Below, one piece after another: positions 40,260 to 50,299 of a stretch of DNA of 57,106 nt. Source of the stretch: Acholeplasmataceae bacterium (GTDB lineage: Bacteria > Bacillota_I > Bacilli_A > ML615J-28 > CAG-313). Numbering within the stretch: position 1 is the first letter of the stretch; each line of letters starts with the position of its first letter. The stretch spans positions 1-57,106 of the forward strand of contig DUPC01000053.1 in the NCBI GenBank assembly GCA_012838545.1, given 5' to 3'. Made by a program: the position numbers and the translations under genes. The notes under the pieces are model-generated. The model searched no databases. It was not told the origin of the DNA and saw only the letters and a list, made by a program, of their open reading frames with translations.

Positions 40260-41381
40260 TTACTGTATAACTATTCCTGAGTGTTTAATCGAAGCTTTTA
40301 CTTTTACTTGGATGTCAAGTTGTTCCAGAAAAGGCGTGCTGTTTTGGGATAACTCAAGCCATTGCTTATATTGCTTTTGAAAGTATAGTTTTTCGAACCC
40401 ACAGATATCGCTTTTGATTTGATTTTTGAGCTTTTCGAAAAAGTCCTCCAGTTTGTTCTTAAGCCAAGATTCCAACATGCGTTGATAATCTTTAGTTGTA
40501 AATTGTTTAGAATATATTATTTGGTTGGTGCCAATGAAAGTATCGATTTTTACCTCCAAATTTAACAAAAGATTTTCACCTTTTTCATATTGTAAAGCGG
40601 TTTGGCAGCCTTGTATCTCATATACAATATAATGATTGGAGTTTTCCGGAATGGGAATATTAAAAACCCCGCCTTTTAGTTCACCCAAAAACATTAAAAG
40701 AAATTTGATATCATCGGGTTCAATATACCCTTCCAATTTGTCATCTTTAAAATAGAAAACGCCTTCCATTGTGAAGGTTTGGTTTTCATCCATCTGTTTG
40801 ATTTCCACAACCGGTAAAGTCAGGTCAATGCCTTCATCCAAGAGTTCCATTAACACTTCATAAAGCAATTTGTTTTTTGATAAAGAGGAATATTTTTCGT
40901 CATTGCGCACCAAACGTTCCAATTCATAGGAGGCAATTTGATGAATCAAGGCGGAATCTTTCAAAGTTTTCTTTGCTTCAACCCCTTTGGCGACAAACAC
41001 GAGTAAAGTCATGCGTAGTTCATGGTCACGCACAAAGAAATCCAAATGTTGTTGGATACCTTCCTTGGCAACTTCTTCGCTGAAAATAATAGCTTTACAG
41101 TGGCCGATGTATAACCGTTTACCGGTAACCGACACCGCATTCCTCAAACCTTCGAAAATAGTATCGCCTTCGGTTTCCACAAGTTTTACGGAAATGTTGA
41201 ATTCCGCAGAGGGTTTGAAAACTACTGTTTCGAAAGTAAATTTAAATTTCTTCTCCTCACCTTTGTCAATCGCAACCCCCGCAACATTCGTCACATTTTT
41301 GATTTCCTGATAATCCCAACACCCCGCCAAAACAAAACAGACAACCATGATTAACAAAGTTAAACTGATTTTTTTACCCAT
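40260..41381 (-). CDS. gerKC: Spore germination protein GerKC (lipoprotein subunit)
   Basis: A 373-residue GerAC-type lipoprotein. The signal peptide ends in FVLAGC, and the mature protein starts CWDYQEI, the typical family N-terminus. It is anchored at the outer face of the spore inner membrane and is needed for receptor assembly. Three mixed alpha/beta domains follow. The start overlaps the gerKA stop by 8 nt. It lacks membrane spans apart from the signal. Confidence 0.95.
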   Translation of the reverse strand: MGKKISLTLLIMVVCFVLAGCWDYQEIKNVTNVAGVAIDKGEEKKFKFTFETVVFKPSAEFNISVKLVETEGDTIFEGLRNAVSVTGKRLYIGHCKAIIFSEEVAKEGIQQHLDFFVRDHELRMTLLVFVAKGVEAKKTLKDSALIHQIASYELERLVRNDEKYSSLSKNKLLYEVLMELLDEGIDLTLPVVEIKQMDENQTFTMEGVFYFKDDKLEGYIEPDDIKFLLMFLGELKGGVFNIPIPENSNHYIVYEIQGCQTALQYEKGENLLLNLEVKIDTFIGTNQIIYSKQFTTKDYQRMLESWLKNKLEDFFEKLKNQIKSDICGFEKLYFQKQYKQWLELSQNSTPFLEQLDIQVKVKASIKHSGIVIQ

Positions 41382-42813
41382 GTTCTTGTTCTCCTTGATG
41401 ATAAATGTTTTTTTTAGGCATCCTGGTAAAGGAATCTTTAAGGTTTTGCTTAGTTAACGGCCAAAAATTGGCAATATAACTGACATTGAAAGATTTTAGC
41501 CCGGTAATATGGGCAATTAAAAGCAAAACTCCCAAAGCCATGCCAAATAATCCCAACAAAAACGCCATAATTAAAAAGAAAATTCGCGTTACAATAACCA
41601 ATCCTTTTAGTTTGGTATTGATTAAACCGGTGATAGCGGTAAGCGAAATAACGATTACCATCGGGGAACTGACTAAGCGAGCCTGAACTGCTGCTTGACC
41701 AATGACAATGGCACCCACGATACTTAAAGCCTGTCCGATTCCGATAGGAGTTCTTAACCCCGTTTCCCGAATCAGCTCGAAAATTATCAACATCACAATA
41801 CATTCCAAAATTGTTGGAAGGGGAATATCTTGTTGGGAGTGCGCAATTGTCAAAGCCATTGGGGAAGGAATTATTTCCCAATGATGCGTAGAAATCGCAA
41901 TATATAAAGCCGGAGTCAAGACTGATACCAAAAAACCAATCATTCTTAGGATTCGGCCAAAGGAGGCAAAATAAACATTTAGGTAATAATCGTCCGGTGA
42001 ATAAAAATTATCAATAAAAAGATATGGCATCGATAAAGCAACCGGAGTACCGTCCGCGATTATTCCTACTTTACCTTCCAAAATTTTCCCTGCAAACACA
42101 TCAGGCCTTTCCGTTACGCCGATGGTTTTAAAAGGAGTGTATTTGGCGTCTTTAATTTTTTCATTAATGATATTGGTATCAAGAATTCCATCAAAATTGA
42201 TTCGGGAAAGCCTTGCCTTAACAATCGGAACCAGCTCGGGGCTTACCAAGTTTTTCATATAACAAAGGCAAATCCGTGTTTTGGTTTCTTTACCGATAAC
42301 TTGATAATCCAAATGTAAATCGGTGGATACAATGCGACGACGAATCAACTGAATATTGAAATCAAGCGATTCCACAAAACTTTCGCGCGGGCCTCGAAGC
42401 ACCTTTTCATTATCGGGTTCCTGAGGAGAGCGTATTACCCGATTGTTGGTTTCAATTAACAAACATTCCGAACTTTTATTTAACAGCAAAACAGTCATTC
42501 CGGTTAATAGTCCGGTAAACAATTCCTCCATTAAATTAGTCAATTTAATGTGTGAAGAAACAATAATATTATCCTTCAACACTTCGCTTAAAGGTTCATG
42601 CGAGGAGCGGTTATGATAAAACAACATTATCGGGAAAACAATTCCCTCATTTACGATTTGTTTTTCCACCATATTGCGTAAATAAACCACACAGAAGGTT
42701 TCTTTTGGGTTGTTGGGGGGAGAAAAAAAGCGCGTTGTCAACAAATCATCACACACCGTCGATTTGATATGATTTACATTATCTACAATATCGGAAAATA
42801 AAAAACGCCTCAC
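41374..42813 (-). CDS. gerKA: Spore germination protein GerKA
   Basis: A protein of about 479 residues of the GerAA family. An N-terminal soluble half (about 1-285) is followed by about five transmembrane helices, with ELIRETGLRTPIGIGQALSIVGAIVIGQAAV (in parts: ELIRETGLRTPIGIGQ and GAIVIGQAAV) as family hallmark. With GerKC and GerKB it forms the receptor that triggers germination. The order A-C-B matches gerK of Bacillus subtilis rather than gerA. A GTG at 42813, nine bases after AAGGA, is the probable start; a TTG at 42822 is too close to it. It is the only Ger receptor in the window. Confidence 0.95.
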   Translation of the reverse strand: MRRFLFSDIVDNVNHIKSTVCDDLLTTRFFSPPNNPKETFCVVYLRNMVEKQIVNEGIVFPIMLFYHNRSSHEPLSEVLKDNIIVSSHIKLTNLMEELFTGLLTGMTVLLLNKSSECLLIETNNRVIRSPQEPDNEKVLRGPRESFVESLDFNIQLIRRRIVSTDLHLDYQVIGKETKTRICLCYMKNLVSPELVPIVKARLSRINFDGILDTNIINEKIKDAKYTPFKTIGVTERPDVFAGKILEGKVGIIADGTPVALSMPYLFIDNFYSPDDYYLNVYFASFGRILRMIGFLVSVLTPALYIAISTHHWEIIPSPMALTIAHSQQDIPLPTILECIVMLIIFELIRETGLRTPIGIGQALSIVGAIVIGQAAVQARLVSSPMVIVISLTAITGLINTKLKGLVIVTRIFFLIMAFLLGLFGMALGVLLLIAHITGLKSFNVSYIANFWPLTKQNLKDSFTRMPKKNIYHQGEQEHG

Positions 42814-42892
42814 GTAAACCAATCCTTCCTTTGTCCAAATTTAACATACGTATTTTTTGGCGAAATGACTGATTTTATGCAAAGCGTTTAGA

Positions 42893-42933
42893 AGCAAAGA
42901 AAGATGGTCCTGCATTAACCATCTTACTTTGCT
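42893..42933 (-). terminator. Hairpin downstream of the nitroreductase gene
   Basis: AGCAAAG-AAAGATGGT pairs with ACCATCTT-A-CTTTGCT around a nine-base loop. There is no proper T run on the minus strand (only TTCTAAAC), so it could be a processed 3' end. The spacer between this hairpin and gerKA (42814-42892) holds nothing else recognised. Confidence 0.55.
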
Positions 42934-42944
42934 GTTTTCATTAT

Positions 42945-43544
42945 TCATTTATACACACGAACGCGTTCTTCAATAGGTAGAAAACTTTTTTCTCCGGCAG
43001 GTTTGGTGATAGAACCAAATGGCATTTGAGCCACTAAACGCCACTCTAGAGGAAGGTTAAAAGTTTTCTTTACTTCGTCGTCGATTAACGGATTATAGTG
43101 TTGAAGCGATGCTCCCATGTTTTGTTCCGCAAGATAAGTCCAAATCGCAAATTGCAACATGCCGTTAGCATGATCCGCCCAACTGTCAAAATGTTGTTTA
43201 TAAAGCGGAAACTTGGCTTTTAAGTCTTCCACGCTTGGGGTATTATCGAAAAAGAGAATGGTTCCGTAGCCTGCTTCAAATGATTGAATTTTGGCTTCGG
43301 TTTGGGGAAAACTTGCTTCTGGAACAATTTTTCGTAAAGTTTCCAATACGATGTTCCAAAATGTATGGTGATTTCCACCTAATAAAATAACTACCCGTCC
43401 GCTTTGAATGTTAAAAGGCGATGGTACAGTTTGAGTTATCGCTTGAATTTGATCAATCAATTGTTGATCGGAAATGGTCGATTGATTATTAAGATGATAA
43501 ATAGTTCTTCTTAATTTAATCGCATCGATAAAATTTGATTGCAT
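42945..43544 (-). CDS. Nitroreductase family protein
   Basis: A 199-residue FMN-binding oxidoreductase. The N-terminus FIDAIKLRRTIYHL is the R-R-T motif of FMN binding, followed by PSPFNIQSGRVVIL, which corresponds to the usual N.QPW. The C-terminal GSITKPAGEKSFLPIEERV is typical of the subgroup near yfkO/YdgI. It may reduce nitro compounds or quinones with NAD(P)H. The ATG at 43544 follows AGGAGG and is preferred over an upstream start. It is transcribed as one gene and separated by a terminator from the next operon. Confidence 0.9.
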   Translation of the reverse strand: MQSNFIDAIKLRRTIYHLNNQSTISDQQLIDQIQAITQTVPSPFNIQSGRVVILLGGNHHTFWNIVLETLRKIVPEASFPQTEAKIQSFEAGYGTILFFDNTPSVEDLKAKFPLYKQHFDSWADHANGMLQFAIWTYLAEQNMGASLQHYNPLIDDEVKKTFNLPLEWRLVAQMPFGSITKPAGEKSFLPIEERVRVYK

Positions 43545-43613
43545 TAAATTCCTCCTTATTGCGAATATTGTAGCACACAAAGCTATTATTACCAAATCAT
43601 TTGCTTTATTACG

Positions 43614-43641
43614 AAAAAAAGAAACTTTTATACAAAGTTTC
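43614..43641 (-). terminator. Terminator of the DUF1538/PII module
   Basis: On the minus strand GAAACTTT-loop-AAAGTTTC is followed by T7. It lies right after the stop of the YebE-like gene and thus ends the whole module. Confidence 0.85.
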
Positions 43642-43642
43642 C

Positions 43643-44206
43643 TTACTTAATGAAACCGCGGGTAGCGGAAATATAACCGCCTTGCAAAGTGGTAACATCA
43701 TTACTGATAATCATTGCGGTTTCATCGATATCGTGAATAAGTTTAATGAGTTGTTCTTTACCTTTGCGATTGGTGTATATCATTAATACTGTCCGTTCGG
43801 TATCCTTACCTTTTGCTTGAATCGTAGTCACTCCATAACCATTACTTCGCAACTCCTCTGCAAGCTTGGACCCCTTATCGGCTGAAGTAATCGTTTGAAT
43901 CAAAACTTTTCCGAAAGCCAGATAATTTTCAATTTTTGAACCGACAAAAACACCGGTGGCAAACCCTAAACTGTAAATTATTCCTTTAATCGGTTGTTCG
44001 GAGATTCCCCCAATAACACGGGATGCCACAAAAACCCAAATAGTTACTTCAAAGAAAGCCAAAATAACTCCTTGTTTGCGATAACCTTTATTGATTAAGA
44101 TAATGCGAAGGGTTCCCATCGATACTTCTATAATCCGCGAACAAAAAATCAACAACAATTCCCACCAAGGGATAGTAAGGAATGCATCAACTATTTTTTC
44201 CCACAT
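43643..44206 (-). CDS. UPF0316/YebE-like (DUF2179) membrane protein
   Basis: A protein of about 187 residues with three predicted transmembrane helices (about 12-33, 36-57 and 62-85) and a C-terminal DUF2179-like soluble domain (about 100-175). The sequence EVSMGTLRIILINKGYRKQG and the end VTTLQGGYIS are characteristic of UPF0316. The function is unknown. The ATG at 44206 after GGTGAAA is preferred; upstream starts lack a site. It is the last gene of the module with DUF1538 and PII-like proteins. Confidence 0.88.
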   Translation of the reverse strand: MWEKIVDAFLTIPWWELLLIFCSRIIEVSMGTLRIILINKGYRKQGVILAFFEVTIWVFVASRVIGGISEQPIKGIIYSLGFATGVFVGSKIENYLAFGKVLIQTITSADKGSKLAEELRSNGYGVTTIQAKGKDTERTVLMIYTNRKGKEQLIKLIHDIDETAMIISNDVTTLQGGYISATRGFIK

Positions 44207-44225
44207 ATTTTCACCTTTTATTACT

Positions 44226-45098
44226 TTAATTATTATTAGTTTCTTTGCGACGCAAAATACTAATGATTGGCATGGATGACAAAGTAAAGTTCGAGGATGT
44301 GATATTGTAGGTGTTGGAACCATCCCCTTCTTTTTGTTCCGGATTGGTGAAATACAATTCCGCTACTCCACGAACCTCAACACCAAGTAAACTGGTTATT
44401 AAAATGTTCATTTTTATCTTTGAGAACACATTGATTTGATCCGGAAAAAAGAAATCGCTATATCCCGGAACCACTAAATTAACAATTACATTTTGGCGTT
44501 TGGTATTTTCATTGTATAAAAGATAGGCTCGGGTATCGGATTTTGTGTCTCCGGAAACAAAGATAAAAGAAACACCCGAACGCTCAAATTTCAATTGTTC
44601 AAAATAAATACTCGCAACTACTTTTCCTTCCACCACTTTAAAAGGGATTTTTAAGGATAGGTAGCGGTAATTTTGGGGATTGGCAAGAACATCTTCTACG
44701 TTGATGGTACTATCGAACATATGAAATTCAATATTTTGTTTATGAATATACTTTTCGATATAGCGGGGAGATTCCTCATAAATCAACATTCGGTCCATAA
44801 ATTCAATAATCGAATAGTTATCAGAAGCAAATTGCAATTCGCGAAACATCTCCGCGCGCATGTTGGCATCAAGATTTGCTTTGTTTACGGATTTATTGTG
44901 TAAGTATACTAAATAGCTAAAACTGGTGGTTGAGCAAAAAGAAGCAAAAGCAACAAAAACCGTAGCTAAGCGAACCCCGATTTCATATGAATCATCCATT
45001 AATTCCTTGCCAAAGACAATCAATGAACAAGCAAGCAAGAAGATAATCGCACTGATGATAAGAATGATGATAAAGATATGCGATTTGTTTTTTTTCAC
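44226..45098 (-). CDS. Membrane protein of unknown function with a large C-terminal region
   Basis: A protein of about 290 residues with two predicted transmembrane helices near the N-terminus (about 5-25 and 40-65). The rest (about 75-290) is soluble, likely cytoplasmic, and beta-rich. No known family is recognised. The GTG at 45098, after GGGTGAT, is more likely than the TTG at 45110. It lies 5 bases after the second PII-like gene, and 20 bases before the YebE-like gene, so it belongs to the module. Confidence 0.75.
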   Translation of the reverse strand: MKKNKSHIFIIILIISAIIFLLACSLIVFGKELMDDSYEIGVRLATVFVAFASFCSTTSFSYLVYLHNKSVNKANLDANMRAEMFRELQFASDNYSIIEFMDRMLIYEESPRYIEKYIHKQNIEFHMFDSTINVEDVLANPQNYRYLSLKIPFKVVEGKVVASIYFEQLKFERSGVSFIFVSGDTKSDTRAYLLYNENTKRQNVIVNLVVPGYSDFFFPDQINVFSKIKMNILITSLLGVEVRGVAELYFTNPEQKEGDGSNTYNITSSNFTLSSMPIISILRRKETNNN

Positions 45099-45115
45099 AT
45101 AATCACCCAAATTTT

Positions 45116-45436
45116 TTACATGTTGGAGCCAAAATTAAAGCCAACCGCTTCATCAACCGGTAAAGACAAACAAATGGCATGTGGTTCTTTATTGATTCCA
45201 TGATCTAAATTAATTGCTTGCATAATTGGGCTTGTGTATTGTTCTTCAACAACAATCAAAATAATATCTTTTTCGGGAGAGATGGTAATGCCAAAAAATT
45301 TCTTTACTTCATGCGCGGCCGTTCCACGACCATGCATTATGGTACCGCCTCTAGCCCCTTGGGATTTTGCGGTTTCCATAACCTCTTCCGAAAATCCGTG
45401 ATTACATATTACTATAATAAGATCGTATTTACTCAT
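45116..45436 (-). CDS. PII-like signalling protein, second copy
   Basis: A 106-residue ferredoxin-like protein of the GlnB/PII superfamily. It has the beta-alpha-beta pattern: YDLIIVICNHGFSEEVMETAKSQGARGGTIMHGRGT. GARGGTIMHGRG is the position of the start of the PII T-loop, but the T-loop Tyr of GlnB is absent, so uridylylation is not expected. The pair of PII-like genes next to a transporter suggests a regulator of that transporter by ATP/ADP or another small ligand. It overlaps the first copy by 8 nt. Confidence 0.8.
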   Translation of the reverse strand: MSKYDLIIVICNHGFSEEVMETAKSQGARGGTIMHGRGTAAHEVKKFFGITISPEKDIILIVVEEQYTSPIMQAINLDHGINKEPHAICLSLPVDEAVGFNFGSNM

Positions 45437-45764
45437 TTTTTTCCTCCATTTTTTCTCCTCTTAAAAGACTAAGGGTTTTCTTACCAATGCTTTTTATCGG
45501 TATTGTAAAAGCCACACCAGTTCCTCGTCTCGAAAATTCAAAAAGTTCAAAAATATTTTCCAAAATTTCCGGTGCATCTTTTTTGGAAACAATGCTGAAG
45601 ATTACACTTTTTTCGGTTTCTGCTAACCCAAAATACTGAAGCAATTCAGAGTTTGCGGAACCTTTTCCGTGAAGGATGGTATTGAAATTTACCTTTAATT
45701 CTTCAAACATTTTTAAAACACGGGGACACATTTTTCGGTCAATTATCGTTATCAGTATTTTCAT
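45429..45764 (-). CDS. PII-like signalling protein, first copy
   Basis: A 111-residue protein with the same fold as its neighbour: ILITIIDRKMCPRVLKMFEEL, then NTILHGKGSANSELLQYFGL, and a final beta strand with GVAFTIPIKS. The two share the TI(L/M)HG(K/R)G(S/T) segment and FG(L/I) but differ elsewhere, so they are likely to form a heteromer or to be alternative regulators. The start overlaps the stop of the DUF1538 gene by 4 nt. Confidence 0.78.
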   Translation of the reverse strand: MKILITIIDRKMCPRVLKMFEELKVNFNTILHGKGSANSELLQYFGLAETEKSVIFSIVSKKDAPEILENIFELFEFSRRGTGVAFTIPIKSIGKKTLSLLRGEKMEEKNE

Positions 45765-47239
45765 TTTTCTACCTCATCTAAAAGAATAATTTCATCATCG
45801 CCTGAATCGTCGATTTTTTCTTTCAACTTAATATGATAGATTAACCCCATCACCTGAATCGTAACCAAAGGCGCCATCGCGACAAATGCTACCAAACCGA
45901 ATGCATCGGTAAGAACATTGGTGCCTAAGATGGTTGCGGCTCCTATAACAAACGGAACCAAGAATGTCGAAGTCATCGCCCCCGATACGGCTCCTCCTGA
46001 GTCAAAAGCAATGGCCGAGAATACTTGCGGAACAAAGAAAAGCAAAATTAAGGCGATACCATAGGCTGGAACCAAGAACCATAGAATATTAATTCCTGTT
46101 AATACACGGATACAAGCAAGACCTATTGCCATGGACACACCCACTGACATACTAATCATCATGGCACGACGAGAAATTGCACCGCTGGTAACTTCTTCAA
46201 CTTGTTTATTCAAAACTATTACCGAAGGTTCCGCCAAAACAATTACTGCTCCGAATAACATACCCGCAGGAACTAATAACCAATTATTTTTTAATTCGCC
46301 AAAAGCTTTGCCCAAATAATCTCCAATTGATACAAAACCAGCATTTGCACCCGCTAAAAAGAGAGCTAGGCCAATATAGGTATAAAGAAAACTTATGAGA
46401 ATGCGAATAACTTTCTTTTTCGGAAAATGAAAAACTAAAAAATTAAAAATGAAAAAGAAAATCAAGAACGGTATGATGGCAATTCCAACTTCGATTAGGT
46501 ACTTGCCTAAAAAACCCCAAAGTGTAAACGTTTCGGAAGGACTTTCCGTGGGTGTTGATAGAAATAACCCTGAAATCATTATGGCAAGGATTGGGCCGAT
46601 TGACGCAACTCCTACAAGACCGAAACTATCGTCTTCAGAACGGCTATCCCCACGGGATAGCGATACCCCTAACCCTAATGCCATAATAAATGGCACAGCC
46701 ATTGGTCCGGTGGTCGCACCCCCTGAATCAAACGCTACAGGCACATAGGAAGGATTGACAAAATTAAGAACAAAAGCAATTATAAAAATAAGGGAATAAA
46801 AACCTATAAAAATATAAGATAATTTTATTTGGAAAATAATTCTCAGCAACGCCACAACAACAAAGATACCTACGCCAAAAGCAACTATCAAAATAAAAAT
46901 AAGAGGGGATTCTTTGTTAAATTGTTCAGAAAGAACGAGAATTGCCGGTTCAGAAATCGTAATCATAAAACCGATGAGAAAACCAATTAAAATCAAAAAC
47001 CACAATTTGCGTTTTCTTGTAATATAACTCCCAATGTTTTCTGCAAGCGGCATCATCGATCCGGTCGCACCAAGTGTAAACAAGATTAAACCGATAATCA
47101 ACATAAAGGCTCCGATAAGGAATTCCCCAATATCGGAGGCTTGTGTCCCAAAGATGAGACAGATGATAAGGATAATAATCGTCATTGGTAGGATACTTTG
47201 CAAGGAATCTTTTATTTTTTCTAGTAGTATTTTATTCAA
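45761..47239 (-). CDS. Duplicated DUF1538 membrane protein (candidate transporter)
   Basis: A 492-residue polytopic membrane protein with about 12-14 helices and a clear internal duplication. SEPAILVLSEQFN (about 93-106) matches AEPSVIVLNKQVEE (about 336-350), and FDSGGATTGPMAVPF (about 168) matches FDSGGAVSGAMTSTF (about 410). Repeats with conserved EP and DSGG in the membrane are typical of two-fold pseudo-symmetric transporters. DUF1538 has no established substrate known to me. It starts with TTG at 47239 behind AGGAGG. It leads a five-gene operon with two PII-like proteins, which suggests PII control of transport. Confidence 0.85.
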   Translation of the reverse strand: MNKILLEKIKDSLQSILPMTIIILIICLIFGTQASDIGEFLIGAFMLIIGLILFTLGATGSMMPLAENIGSYITRKRKLWFLILIGFLIGFMITISEPAILVLSEQFNKESPLIFILIVAFGVGIFVVVALLRIIFQIKLSYIFIGFYSLIFIIAFVLNFVNPSYVPVAFDSGGATTGPMAVPFIMALGLGVSLSRGDSRSEDDSFGLVGVASIGPILAIMISGLFLSTPTESPSETFTLWGFLGKYLIEVGIAIIPFLIFFFIFNFLVFHFPKKKVIRILISFLYTYIGLALFLAGANAGFVSIGDYLGKAFGELKNNWLLVPAGMLFGAVIVLAEPSVIVLNKQVEEVTSGAISRRAMMISMSVGVSMAIGLACIRVLTGINILWFLVPAYGIALILLFFVPQVFSAIAFDSGGAVSGAMTSTFLVPFVIGAATILGTNVLTDAFGLVAFVAMAPLVTIQVMGLIYHIKLKEKIDDSGDDEIILLDEVEK

Positions 47240-47281
47240 ATATTTATCCTCCTGTCACAGAATTCATTTATTATATTCCTT

Positions 47282-47310
47282 ATTATATCATTTAAATGCT
47301 ATGATGTAAA
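47282..47310 (-). promoter_or_regulatory. Sigma-A promoter of the DUF1538/PII operon
   Basis: On the minus strand TTTACA (47305-47310), a 17-base spacer, and a perfect TATAAT (47282-47287). The rest of the gap 47311-47455 is AT-rich with no other signal seen. Confidence 0.85.
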
Positions 47311-47455
47311 GCCAAATGAAAATGATAAAATTCTCATACACAATAGCATGTCCCATCATACCTGAAAATATAATATTGACAAAATAAGTCAAATATTTTC
47401 TCTTTAAGTTTATCTTCGCTTGCATATTCTATAAGATGTTTTTTCAAATTGTGTT

Positions 47456-47484
47456 AAAAAATGATCCAAATTAATGGATCATTT
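47456..47484 (-). terminator. Terminator of the hut operon
   Basis: On the minus strand AAATGATCC pairs with GGATCATTT around an eight-base loop, followed by a T run. It lies directly after the fchA stop. Confidence 0.85.
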
Positions 47485-47488
47485 GTTA

Positions 47489-48133
47489 CTATTTGGATAA
47501 TAACCGATTTACTTCCTGAATTCCTTGGTTAAATAGTTTATCCGCTTCTTCTTTTAAACGGAAAACACTGTTTAGGAAGTCATCCTTGGTGGTTTGGTCG
47601 GAAAAATCTTTCATATTAGTTTTGACATTAAAGGTAGCGCCCTCAAAGCCCGCTTTAATTAACAATAGTCCTACTCCAAAGTCGGAGATTGCGGTTTTAT
47701 TGGCATATTTTAGCATTGGGATTGCTAATCTTAAAGCTGACAATGCAATTTCTGCGGTTAGGTGAGGTACCTTCGTGGCAAGGATGGTTGCTTTATTTAG
47801 TTGCTTTTCGCGAATCTTTTGTTCCTTTGGGGTATTTTTAGGAAGTTGCAAGCTATCCATAATGAAGTTGAAAGCGTCCGTATCGCTGTCAACTAATCCA
47901 ATTGCCAAGTTCTTGTGTTGATCTAGTTCCTCGAAAGCCTTTAAATATTCGGTTTTTATTTCCCCGGGGAGCTCTTTAAATTTCTTTTTCCCAATAGTCA
48001 AATGTGCTACCATCCGAATTAGGCTAATGCCTTGGGCCACTGAAAGGGCGGCTACACTTCCCCCGCCCGGAGTTGGGGTTGGAGCATCCACCACTTGCAT
48101 AAATTCCTTGCATGATAGTTCAACTAATTTCAT
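47489..48133 (-). CDS. fchA: Formimidoyltetrahydrofolate cyclodeaminase
   Basis: A 214-residue all-helical protein of the FTCD_C family that converts 5-formimino-THF to 5,10-methenyl-THF plus ammonia. The N-terminus has VVDAPTPTPGGGSVAALSVAQG, the conserved PGGGSVAA stretch of the active site. It is the stand-alone form of the domain fused to formiminotransferase in animals. The ATG at 48133 follows AGGTG and lies one base after the hutI stop. It closes the hut operon. Confidence 0.94.
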   Translation of the reverse strand: MKLVELSCKEFMQVVDAPTPTPGGGSVAALSVAQGISLIRMVAHLTIGKKKFKELPGEIKTEYLKAFEELDQHKNLAIGLVDSDTDAFNFIMDSLQLPKNTPKEQKIREKQLNKATILATKVPHLTAEIALSALRLAIPMLKYANKTAISDFGVGLLLIKAGFEGATFNVKTNMKDFSDQTTKDDFLNSVFRLKEEADKLFNQGIQEVNRLLSK

Positions 48134-48134
48134 T

Positions 48135-49394
48135 TCATACACCTATTATTCTTCCTTGACTTACAACTTGTTTACCGCCGATATAAACATCTTCCACATG
48201 GTTAATGCCAAAACGGTAAATTAAATAATCTAGATTTGGGCAGTCAAAAATAACGAAATCTGCATCCTTTCCCCCTTCAATCGTCCCTTTTGTTTCATCA
48301 AGTCCCAAACTCACAGCCGCATTAATCGTCGTAGCTGTAATTACCTCTTTCGGGGTCATTTTCATCTTCAAACAAGCCACTTGCATGGCGAGCTGAAGGT
48401 TTTCGCAAGGGGAACTTCCGGGATTGTAATCAGTCGCAATTGCCACTCCACAACCTTTCTTTATCATCAAACGAGCGTTGGCGTAATTGCTGTTTAAGTA
48501 AAACGATGTCAATGGCAATAAATTGGCAACAACCCGACCTTTAGCAAGTTGGTCCATATCGCTTTCTTTGGTTGCCATTAAGTGATCAGCAGAAATACAC
48601 CCCAATTCTTGGGCAAGACTTGCTCCTCCCATGGAGACAATCTCATCTGCATGCATCTTTATTCCATACCCAAGTGATTTGGCGAAGGTTAAAAATTCCC
48701 TTGTCTCCTCAAGCGAAAAAACACCGTCTTCGCAAAAGACATCGCAAAACTTTGCTAGGTTTTGCTTTTTTATTTCCTTTATCATTTCTTTCAATAAAGC
48801 AATGAACTTTGGACGGTTATCTTTATATTGAGGGGGTATCGCATGTGCTCCCATGAAAGTATTGATAATCTTTATAGGATGCCTTTGGTCTAAAGTTTTG
48901 GCCACTTCTAATTGTTTTAATTCAGTGGATAGTTCCAAACCATAACCGCTTTTTGCTTCAACCACAGTTGTACCATGTAAAAGCATTCGGTTAAGCGTTT
49001 TTTGGGATTGGTTTAATAAATCATTAAAGGAGGCTTGAGTGGTTTGGGCAACCGTATCAAAGATTCCTCCGCCTTGCTTCAAAATATCCAGATAAGTATA
49101 TCCAGCCAATTTCATCGCCAATTCATGTTCCCGTGACCCAGCATGCACTAAATGGGTATGCGAATCGATTAACCCCGGGGTAATGAGTTTTCCCTGCGCA
49201 TCGATAATTAACGCTGAAGCCTGATATTTTTGATAACCCAATCCGGTACCAACTTCGGTAAACTTACCGTTTTCTACAACAAAATAAGCATTTTTTAATA
49301 TTTGAGCTTCATTCATGTCTTTTCCGGTCCGTAACCCTTTTGAACCTTTTAAAGTTACCAATTCGCCGATGTTTTTAACTACTATGTAACGCAA
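48135..49394 (-). CDS. hutI: Imidazolonepropionase
   Basis: A 419-residue amidohydrolase that opens the imidazolone ring to give N-formimino-L-glutamate. The metal site is intact: PGLIDSHTHLVHAGSREHE near 72, and HADEIVSMGGASLA near 240, with DYNPGSSPC near 320. The TTG at 49394, after AAGGATG, is the apparent start. It comes directly after ftcD. Confidence 0.96.
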   Translation of the reverse strand: MRYIVVKNIGELVTLKGSKGLRTGKDMNEAQILKNAYFVVENGKFTEVGTGLGYQKYQASALIIDAQGKLITPGLIDSHTHLVHAGSREHELAMKLAGYTYLDILKQGGGIFDTVAQTTQASFNDLLNQSQKTLNRMLLHGTTVVEAKSGYGLELSTELKQLEVAKTLDQRHPIKIINTFMGAHAIPPQYKDNRPKFIALLKEMIKEIKKQNLAKFCDVFCEDGVFSLEETREFLTFAKSLGYGIKMHADEIVSMGGASLAQELGCISADHLMATKESDMDQLAKGRVVANLLPLTSFYLNSNYANARLMIKKGCGVAIATDYNPGSSPCENLQLAMQVACLKMKMTPKEVITATTINAAVSLGLDETKGTIEGGKDADFVIFDCPNLDYLIYRFGINHVEDVYIGGKQVVSQGRIIGV

Positions 49395-49396
49395 GG

Positions 49397-50299
49397 CTAT
49401 TCATCCTTCTTTATTAAATGGTATTCAAGGACTTTGTCAACAGATAAATTGCTTAACCCCAAATAATACTCCATCGATTGCGTTAATGCTTCAAGCGGTA
49501 TCATCCCCACGATTTCGCTGCCAATGACGCTAACACCGTAACGGGTAGCTTCCATTTTTACCATTTCAAAAACGCGATAAATACTGTTTTTTTGATAATT
49601 GGTGATATTCATTGTAACTTGAACAATGCCCTTTTCTTTAATTTCGACGGCACCAGCTTTAATATACCTTAAACCTCCGCTGGAATGGCGAATTGTTTTA
49701 GCGATATTTTGTGCTATTTCTTTATTGTCGGTATTTAAACTGATATTATAAGCAATCAAAGGCATTCGTGCCCCTACCGCTACCGCACCGGCTGTAGGAT
49801 GAATTTCTGGTTTTCCAAAATCTGGGTGCCAAAGGGGATTCTTAATTTTGGTTTTCATTCCTTCAAATTCTCCTTTTCGGATATCCGCCAAATTAACCCG
49901 TTGTTCATCAGTGGCTGCTTCTTCATATAAAAAGACCGGCAACCCAAAACGTTCGTAAAGGGCTTGACCTAATCTTTTAGCATAAGAAACGCATTCTTTC
50001 ATTTTGATATTCTGAATCGGCACAAATGGGATAACATCGATAGCGCCCATCCTTGGATGCTCACCTTGATGGTGATTTAAATCAATTAATTCAATTGTTT
50101 TTTCCACCATCGCAAGCAATGGTTCTATCATTGCTTCCGGATCGCCCAGTAAAGTTACAACCGTACGATTGTAACTGGCATCCGGTTCCACGCTTAATAA
50201 TTTGAAACCAGGTTGATTGCGTAATACCGAAACGATTTTTTCGACGGTTTCAAGATTACAACCATCGGAAAAATTCGGAACGCATTGAACTACTTTCAT
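49397..50299 (-). CDS. ftcD: Glutamate formimidoyltransferase
   Basis: A 300-residue enzyme that moves the formimino group of formiminoglutamate to tetrahydrofolate, yielding glutamate. It begins VVQCVPNFSDGCN and has HHQGEHPRMGAIDVIPFVP near 80, the folate and substrate site with the catalytic His. The fold is FTCD_N plus FTCD. It lies between hutU and hutI, with 2-base gaps. Together with fchA it routes histidine carbon into C1 units instead of releasing formamide. Confidence 0.96.
   Translation of the reverse strand: MKVVQCVPNFSDGCNLETVEKIVSVLRNQPGFKLLSVEPDASYNRTVVTLLGDPEAMIEPLLAMVEKTIELIDLNHHQGEHPRMGAIDVIPFVPIQNIKMKECVSYAKRLGQALYERFGLPVFLYEEAATDEQRVNLADIRKGEFEGMKTKIKNPLWHPDFGKPEIHPTAGAVAVGARMPLIAYNISLNTDNKEIAQNIAKTIRHSSGGLRYIKAGAVEIKEKGIVQVTMNITNYQKNSIYRVFEMVKMEATRYGVSVIGSEIVGMIPLEALTQSMEYYLGLSNLSVDKVLEYHLIKKDE

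Follow-up and report, generated by a model that had tools for sequence, protein, structure and literature searches.

The stretch of DNA analyzed in this work (hereafter the window: 57,106 nucleotides of contig DUPC01000053.1 from an Acholeplasmataceae bacterium, assembly GCA_012838545.1) contains, between positions 43643 and 47239, five open reading frames (ORFs), all on the minus strand. Gene 1 (45761..47239) encodes a membrane protein of the DUF1538 family, genes 2 (45429..45764) and 3 (45116..45436) encode two different PII-like proteins of 111 and 106 amino acids, termed here PII1 and PII2, and genes 4 (44226..45110) and 5 (43643..44206) encode two further membrane proteins. The conserved unit consists of the first three genes and not of all five, and we propose that it may be a cation/H+ antiporter together with a PII complex that controls it. 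The five genes are preceded by a sigma-70-type promoter (minus strand, 47282..47310) composed of TTTACA, a 17-nucleotide spacer and TATAAT with the extended -10 TG, which agrees with the consensus at 11 of 12 positions and is the top-scoring candidate of the region. An AGGAGG ribosome-binding site (minus strand, 47248..47253), read from the sequence, lies ahead of the TTG start of gene 1. The junction of genes 1 and 2 is a 4-nucleotide ATGA overlap (45761-45764) and that of genes 2 and 3 an overlap of 8 nucleotides (45429-45436), followed by gaps of 5 nucleotides between genes 3 and 4 and of about 19 nucleotides between genes 4 and 5. The intrinsic terminator (minus strand, 43613..43644; dG -9.7 kcal/mol, z -3.95) is an 11-bp hairpin that starts at the gene 5 stop codon, with a U run after it; the consensus scan overlooked it because its stem is poor in G-C pairs. 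The coordinates, promoter and hairpin confirm an earlier reading of the window made from its letters alone (the original prediction), which had placed the five genes, with their overlaps, in one operon between a promoter and a terminator, and their synthesis as a single transcript in the source genome is plausible.

The product of gene 1 matches PF07556 twice, with E 5.5e-124 for the whole protein and E 8.5e-61 or better for each half, and the two repeats score 219.7 and 204.6 bits against a curated cut-off of 22.6. Among the NCBIfam models the N-terminal half matches UmpA best and the C-terminal half UmpB (whole-protein E 7e-40 and 1e-35), so that the protein is a fused UmpA-UmpB; by its sequence it is a member of the UmpAB family, and not of the same equivalog. 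The EP motif occurs twice (E97/P98 and E337/P338), as does DSGG (at D171 and D413), and both are near-invariant among relatives. The internal duplication with these motifs, noticed in the original prediction, is thus evident both from the two PF07556 matches and from the recurrence of the motifs in both halves. The same reading regarded the substrate as not known, which is out of date, since growth rescue and experiments with vesicles have identified UmpAB of Halomonas zhaodongensis, a DUF1538 protein made of two homologous subunits that work as a heterodimer, as a Na+(Li+, K+)/H+ antiporter (PMC5484666). Each half of the window protein contains one conserved Glu and two conserved Asp residues (first half, E97, D171 and D204; second half, E337, D413 and D445), which fits the one Glu and two Asp residues of the UmpAB paper, the correspondence being made by motif count.

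The AlphaFold2 model of the DUF1538 protein (mean predicted local distance difference test score, pLDDT, 90.5; predicted template modelling score 0.88) contains helices broken at EP and DSGG, and the conserved Glu (of EP) and Asp (of DSGG and D(S/A)FG) sit near these helix breaks. With loops taken from the model, and with the sides of the membrane assigned by our own reading of it rather than by a prediction tool, Lys and Arg make up 0.172 of the loop residues on the proposed inner side versus 0.028 on the outer side. This bias supports the predicted topology, in which 14 transmembrane segments are divided between two halves of seven that are inverted to each other, and both ends, including the acidic C-terminal tail (DDEIILL), lie in the cytoplasm. 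A Foldseek comparison of the model with the PDB returned no match at E<=0.001, the SbtA fold and the known antiporter folds included, and sequence searches of the PDB yielded no convincing template, whether the query was one of the proteins of the window or the DUF1538 profile.

PII1 and PII2 match the Pfam P-II family with E 3.3e-5 and 8.2e-4, respectively, and their homologues exceed the cut-off of that family; PII1 additionally gives a weak match to DUF2179 (E 8.7e-4). The evidence for the fold comes from a fused homologue and not from the two chains of the window taken separately: the natural PII-PII fusion of locus L094 was modelled as two PII domains (pLDDT 86.2), for which Foldseek retrieved GlnK1 (E 1.4e-6, probability 1.00), GlnK and other PII structures, with 204 matches at E<=0.001. 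The P-II matches and the gene neighbourhoods described below agree with the original prediction, in which two divergent PII-like proteins accompany a single membrane protein, and the PII fold, which that reading had left to structure prediction, is borne out on the fused homologue. An alignment with GlnB and GlnK of Escherichia coli reveals no equivalents of Gln39, Tyr51, Arg101 and Arg103 in either protein and a shorter T-loop in both, so that neither classical uridylylation nor the sensing of 2-oxoglutarate is likely. The residues that are conserved instead comprise G-[RK]-G-[TS] at the base of the T-loop and an E-K pair that follows it; the B-loop of PII1 carries, in addition, a conserved G-x-G-[IV]-A-F. 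The profile search of the source genome, which is 96% complete, found no ammonium transporter (PF00909), no further P-II protein and no canonical PII. The genome encodes a diadenylate cyclase, i.e. a synthase of cyclic di-AMP (c-di-AMP), and no PstA/DarA family appears among the profile matches of PII1 and PII2 up to E = 1.

The linkage of DUF1538 with PII genes was examined in 176 loci: 54 from relatives, the window itself, 80 named genome contigs, 16 more from the phylum, 20 from Clostridia in which DUF1538 is split or single, and five on annotated plasmids; at least two records sit in two of these collections (L049/L088 and L086/L202) and are counted twice, and, apart from the published Halomonas pair, the Proteobacteria are represented by two plasmid-bearing genera, Chelativorans and Methylocystis. 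PII-like genes adjoin DUF1538 in 170 of the 176, and in the remaining six (L072, L083, L084, L085, L104 and L143) a contig end cuts off the side on which the PII genes are expected, which in L072 is the upstream side, the PIIs coming first as in L067 and L078. Among 99 relatives, 47 have both DUF1538 and PII2 and 49 have neither (agreement in 96 of 99); the exceptions are G030, where a contig end cuts the locus, G023 and G047. A Fisher test of this co-occurrence ignores relatedness and is not used here as a probability. The association of DUF1538 with PII spans Clostridia, Mollicutes and some Proteobacteria, the best named match being Peloplasma aerotolerans (Mollicutes; 57% identical), and RefSeq already annotates DUF1538 and PII genes side by side. 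The recurrence of the trio in nearly all relatives examined suggests that the PII sensors switch the antiporter on and off. One contig labelled Methanoculleus sp. UBA77 (L164) carries a typical Clostridial locus of UmpAB and PII-PII, likely as a contamination of the bin.

The loci form a graded series of duplication and fusion. Two Clostridial loci (L256 and L258) contain a lone single-repeat DUF1538 with one PII; in L241, L254, L257 and the Chelativorans and Methylocystis plasmids, split UmpA and UmpB are accompanied by one PII, and in the other split loci by two, separate or fused. The relatives of the window mostly have fused UmpAB with two separate PIIs, and the Clostridia among the named matches mostly fused UmpAB with fused PII-PII. 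The arrangement of L256 and L258 may represent an ancestral form that is homodimeric. In L067, L070 and L078, DUF1538 adjoins a row of three PII genes, which in the first and last of these loci precede split UmpA/UmpB. Exactly two PII domains occur in 124 of the 129 loci with PII matches, in 80 of these within a single protein, and the fused and separate states have switched at least two times. PIIs of the first and of the second position form two separate groups in the tree (support 84/90, from few columns), and the single proteobacterial PII resembles the second one, PII2; therefore PII1 is the diverged partner. A PII1-PII2 pair also exists in genome G047, which has no DUF1538 match (L221, 5343-6054). 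At a second locus of G095 (L223, 4692-6791), a PII pair without DUF1538 immediately precedes genes for an ABC ATPase and for a UPF0014 permease, a combination resembling FetAB, which suggests that such pairs may serve other transporters. The frequent fusion, the two tree groups and the pairs without DUF1538 point to PII1 and PII2 acting together as a pair, from which we infer that they are in physical contact. The heteromeric regulator of the original prediction is therefore plausible as far as the pairing is concerned, and conjectural in the contact itself.

Several known systems resemble the one described here. NifI1 and NifI2, the paired PII regulators of nitrogenase, are likewise two distinct proteins of PII type with adjacent genes, although their target is nitrogenase and not a transporter. 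In AmtB-GlnK, too, a transporter is accompanied by an adjacent PII gene, the product of which docks from the cytoplasm; however, the source genome has no ammonium transporter, and the equivalents of Tyr51, Gln39, Arg101 and Arg103 are absent. UmpAB shares with the protein of the window the DUF1538 family, the two homologous halves and similar conserved acidic residues, whereas in the window UmpA and UmpB are fused, the PII genes follow, and antiport is a prediction. The cyanobacterial sodium/bicarbonate system SbtA-SbtB also combines an inverted-repeat transporter with an operon partner of the PII fold, but the DUF1538 model is unlike SbtA, there are two different PIIs instead of one, and both lack the CGPxGC motif. 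In that system the T-loop of the PII-like SbtB enters the cytoplasmic cleft of the transporter (PMC8352866), and it is by analogy with SbtA-SbtB that we propose docking.

We therefore favor, with a probability of about 0.55, an UmpAB-type cation/H+ antiporter gated from the cytoplasm by a heteromeric, probably nucleotide-sensing PII complex. Gene 1 would encode the fused antiporter with its two homologous inverted halves of seven segments, antiport itself being known from one relative, UmpAB. PII1 and PII2 would form a mixed trimer or stacked trimers and bind a small ligand at the subunit clefts, most likely an adenine nucleotide (ATP, ADP, AMP, cAMP or c-di-AMP); they would sit on the inner side of the antiporter, like GlnK on AmtB or SbtB on SbtA, and would close or open it depending on the nucleotide bound. 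Whereas the families, the folds, the duplication, the fusion and the linkage are shown by the present analysis, the docking, the direction of control, the ligand and the stoichiometry of the putative heteromer are inferred. In the lineage of the window, the antiporter might be docked by the diverged PII1 at its acidic C-terminal tail, a candidate site to be taken as a lead only. A motif such as DDEIIEL ends 104 of 124 fused antiporters by a loose pattern, versus about 20 after shuffling of the same tail, a comparison that is descriptive since the motif was defined after viewing the tails. The tail was not found in the split forms examined, nor in one fused clade with the least diverged first PII, and its counts with respect to a diverged PII1 are 102/118 versus 0/6. 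We do not regard this association as established, since in the tree it comes down essentially to a single deep split, and a comparison of independent pairs is not significant.

A number of observations speak against this explanation. The scores of PII1 (24.6 bits) and PII2 (20.1 bits) fall just under the Pfam P-II cut-off of 25, and the gene 1 protein is far under the NCBIfam cut-offs of NF041627 and NF041628 (136.8 versus 490 and 123.2 versus 500 bits). The residues with which GlnB binds adenine nucleotides (the lysine of GDGK, R101 and R103) are not conserved in PII1 and PII2. The contact between PIIs and antiporter is proposed by analogy, the PII pairs without DUF1538, as in G047, may have other targets, and the tail and the diverged PII1 could coincide by chance, through a single deep split. 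The KNabc rescue screen has yielded reports of other unexpected families. UmpAB is the sole DUF1538 protein to have been assayed, by that very screen (PMC5484666).

The nature of the substrate is the point at which the strongest alternative departs. DUF1538 might carry something other than a monovalent cation, e.g. a sodium-coupled metabolite or bicarbonate, the PIIs coupling its uptake to the energy or carbon state and the antiport of UmpAB being partial or secondary. PIIs usually guard nutrient uptake, as with AmtB and SbtA, a sodium-coupled transporter could likewise make use of the Glu and Asp residues at the helix breaks, and the model matches no known antiporter fold. Yet the only functional data, obtained with vesicles, show an exchange of Na+, Li+ and K+ for H+ (PMC5484666), and DUF1538 is among the top 20 Pfam features of a growth-pH model, beside Mrp and K+ transport families (PMC13255231), so that we consider this alternative rather unlikely, if far from fanciful.

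It is less probable still that the membrane protein is an anchor or sink for PIIs whose true targets are soluble enzymes, with a minor effect on transport. AmtB does sequester GlnK, and PII pairs occur without DUF1538 in G047 and beside the FetAB-like ABC pair in G095, but the linkage between DUF1538 and PII is near complete, and copy numbers and fusions vary on both sides. A five-gene complex with the products of genes 4 and 5 as extra subunits we regard as highly improbable. The shared strand, the short gaps and a terminator placed only after gene 5 agree with it, as do the likening of DUF2179 to PII in BB0017 (PMC6516651) and the weak DUF2179 match of PII1; however, genes 4 and 5 are linked to DUF1538 in no other locus examined, which largely refutes the complex as a conserved module. 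The module of five genes in the original prediction thus shrinks to three, and the linkage of genes 4 and 5 to the trio is, as far as seen among the loci examined, private to the source genome.

Transporter-PII pairs are already known as a kind, and DUF1538 has a published function in UmpAB, in a paper that makes no mention of PII (PMC5484666). Our search, confined to the open-access literature, found no description of the pairing of DUF1538 with PII; within that scope this pairing appears to be undescribed, as do the graded series of duplication and fusion and the membrane fold without a PDB match. At somewhat under even odds, we suggest that these proteins represent cation/H+ antiporters gated by PIIs, a widespread class whose membrane fold is absent from the PDB; the antiporter halves would have duplicated, diverged and fused in parallel with the PIIs, and a heteromeric sensor would link ion and pH balance to the nucleotide state. 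If this is true, PII signalling, the textbook case of nitrogen and carbon sensing, would in Clostridia, Mollicutes and some Proteobacteria also cover the homeostasis of ions and pH, the many proteins annotated as "DUF1538" and "P-II family nitrogen regulator" would share a testable hypothesis, and DUF1538 would become a target for a new transporter structure.

The remaining genes of the likely transcript lie outside the conserved module. Gene 4 encodes a membrane protein of about 290 amino acids, starting at a TTG or an internal GTG, with hydrophobic N-terminal helices and no Pfam family; its homologues occur in 3 of 59 relatives (54-55% identity), none of them beside DUF1538 or this PII pair. 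Gene 5 encodes a UPF0316-like membrane protein, with DUF5698 and DUF2179 above their cut-offs and NF003191 matched at E 5.5e-46, below the cut-off of that model. Its homologues, two of them marginal, were found in 16 of the 59 relatives, in none of the loci examined beside DUF1538 or this PII pair; gene-5-like matches near DUF1538 in L040, L075 and L147 were not counted, as their ORFs of 107-118 residues are too short for UPF0316. The resemblance of DUF2179 to PII reported for Borrelia BB0017 (PMC6516651) raises the possibility that gene 5 may contribute a third PII-like domain. Tandem pairs of UPF0316-like (DUF2179) genes are present in two genomes of the order (L178 and L180). As to the surroundings of the trio within 41374-50299, a GerA spore germination gene and a nitroreductase lie on one side, and on the other a cyclodeaminase (FTCD_C), a likely imidazolonepropionase and a likely formiminotransferase.

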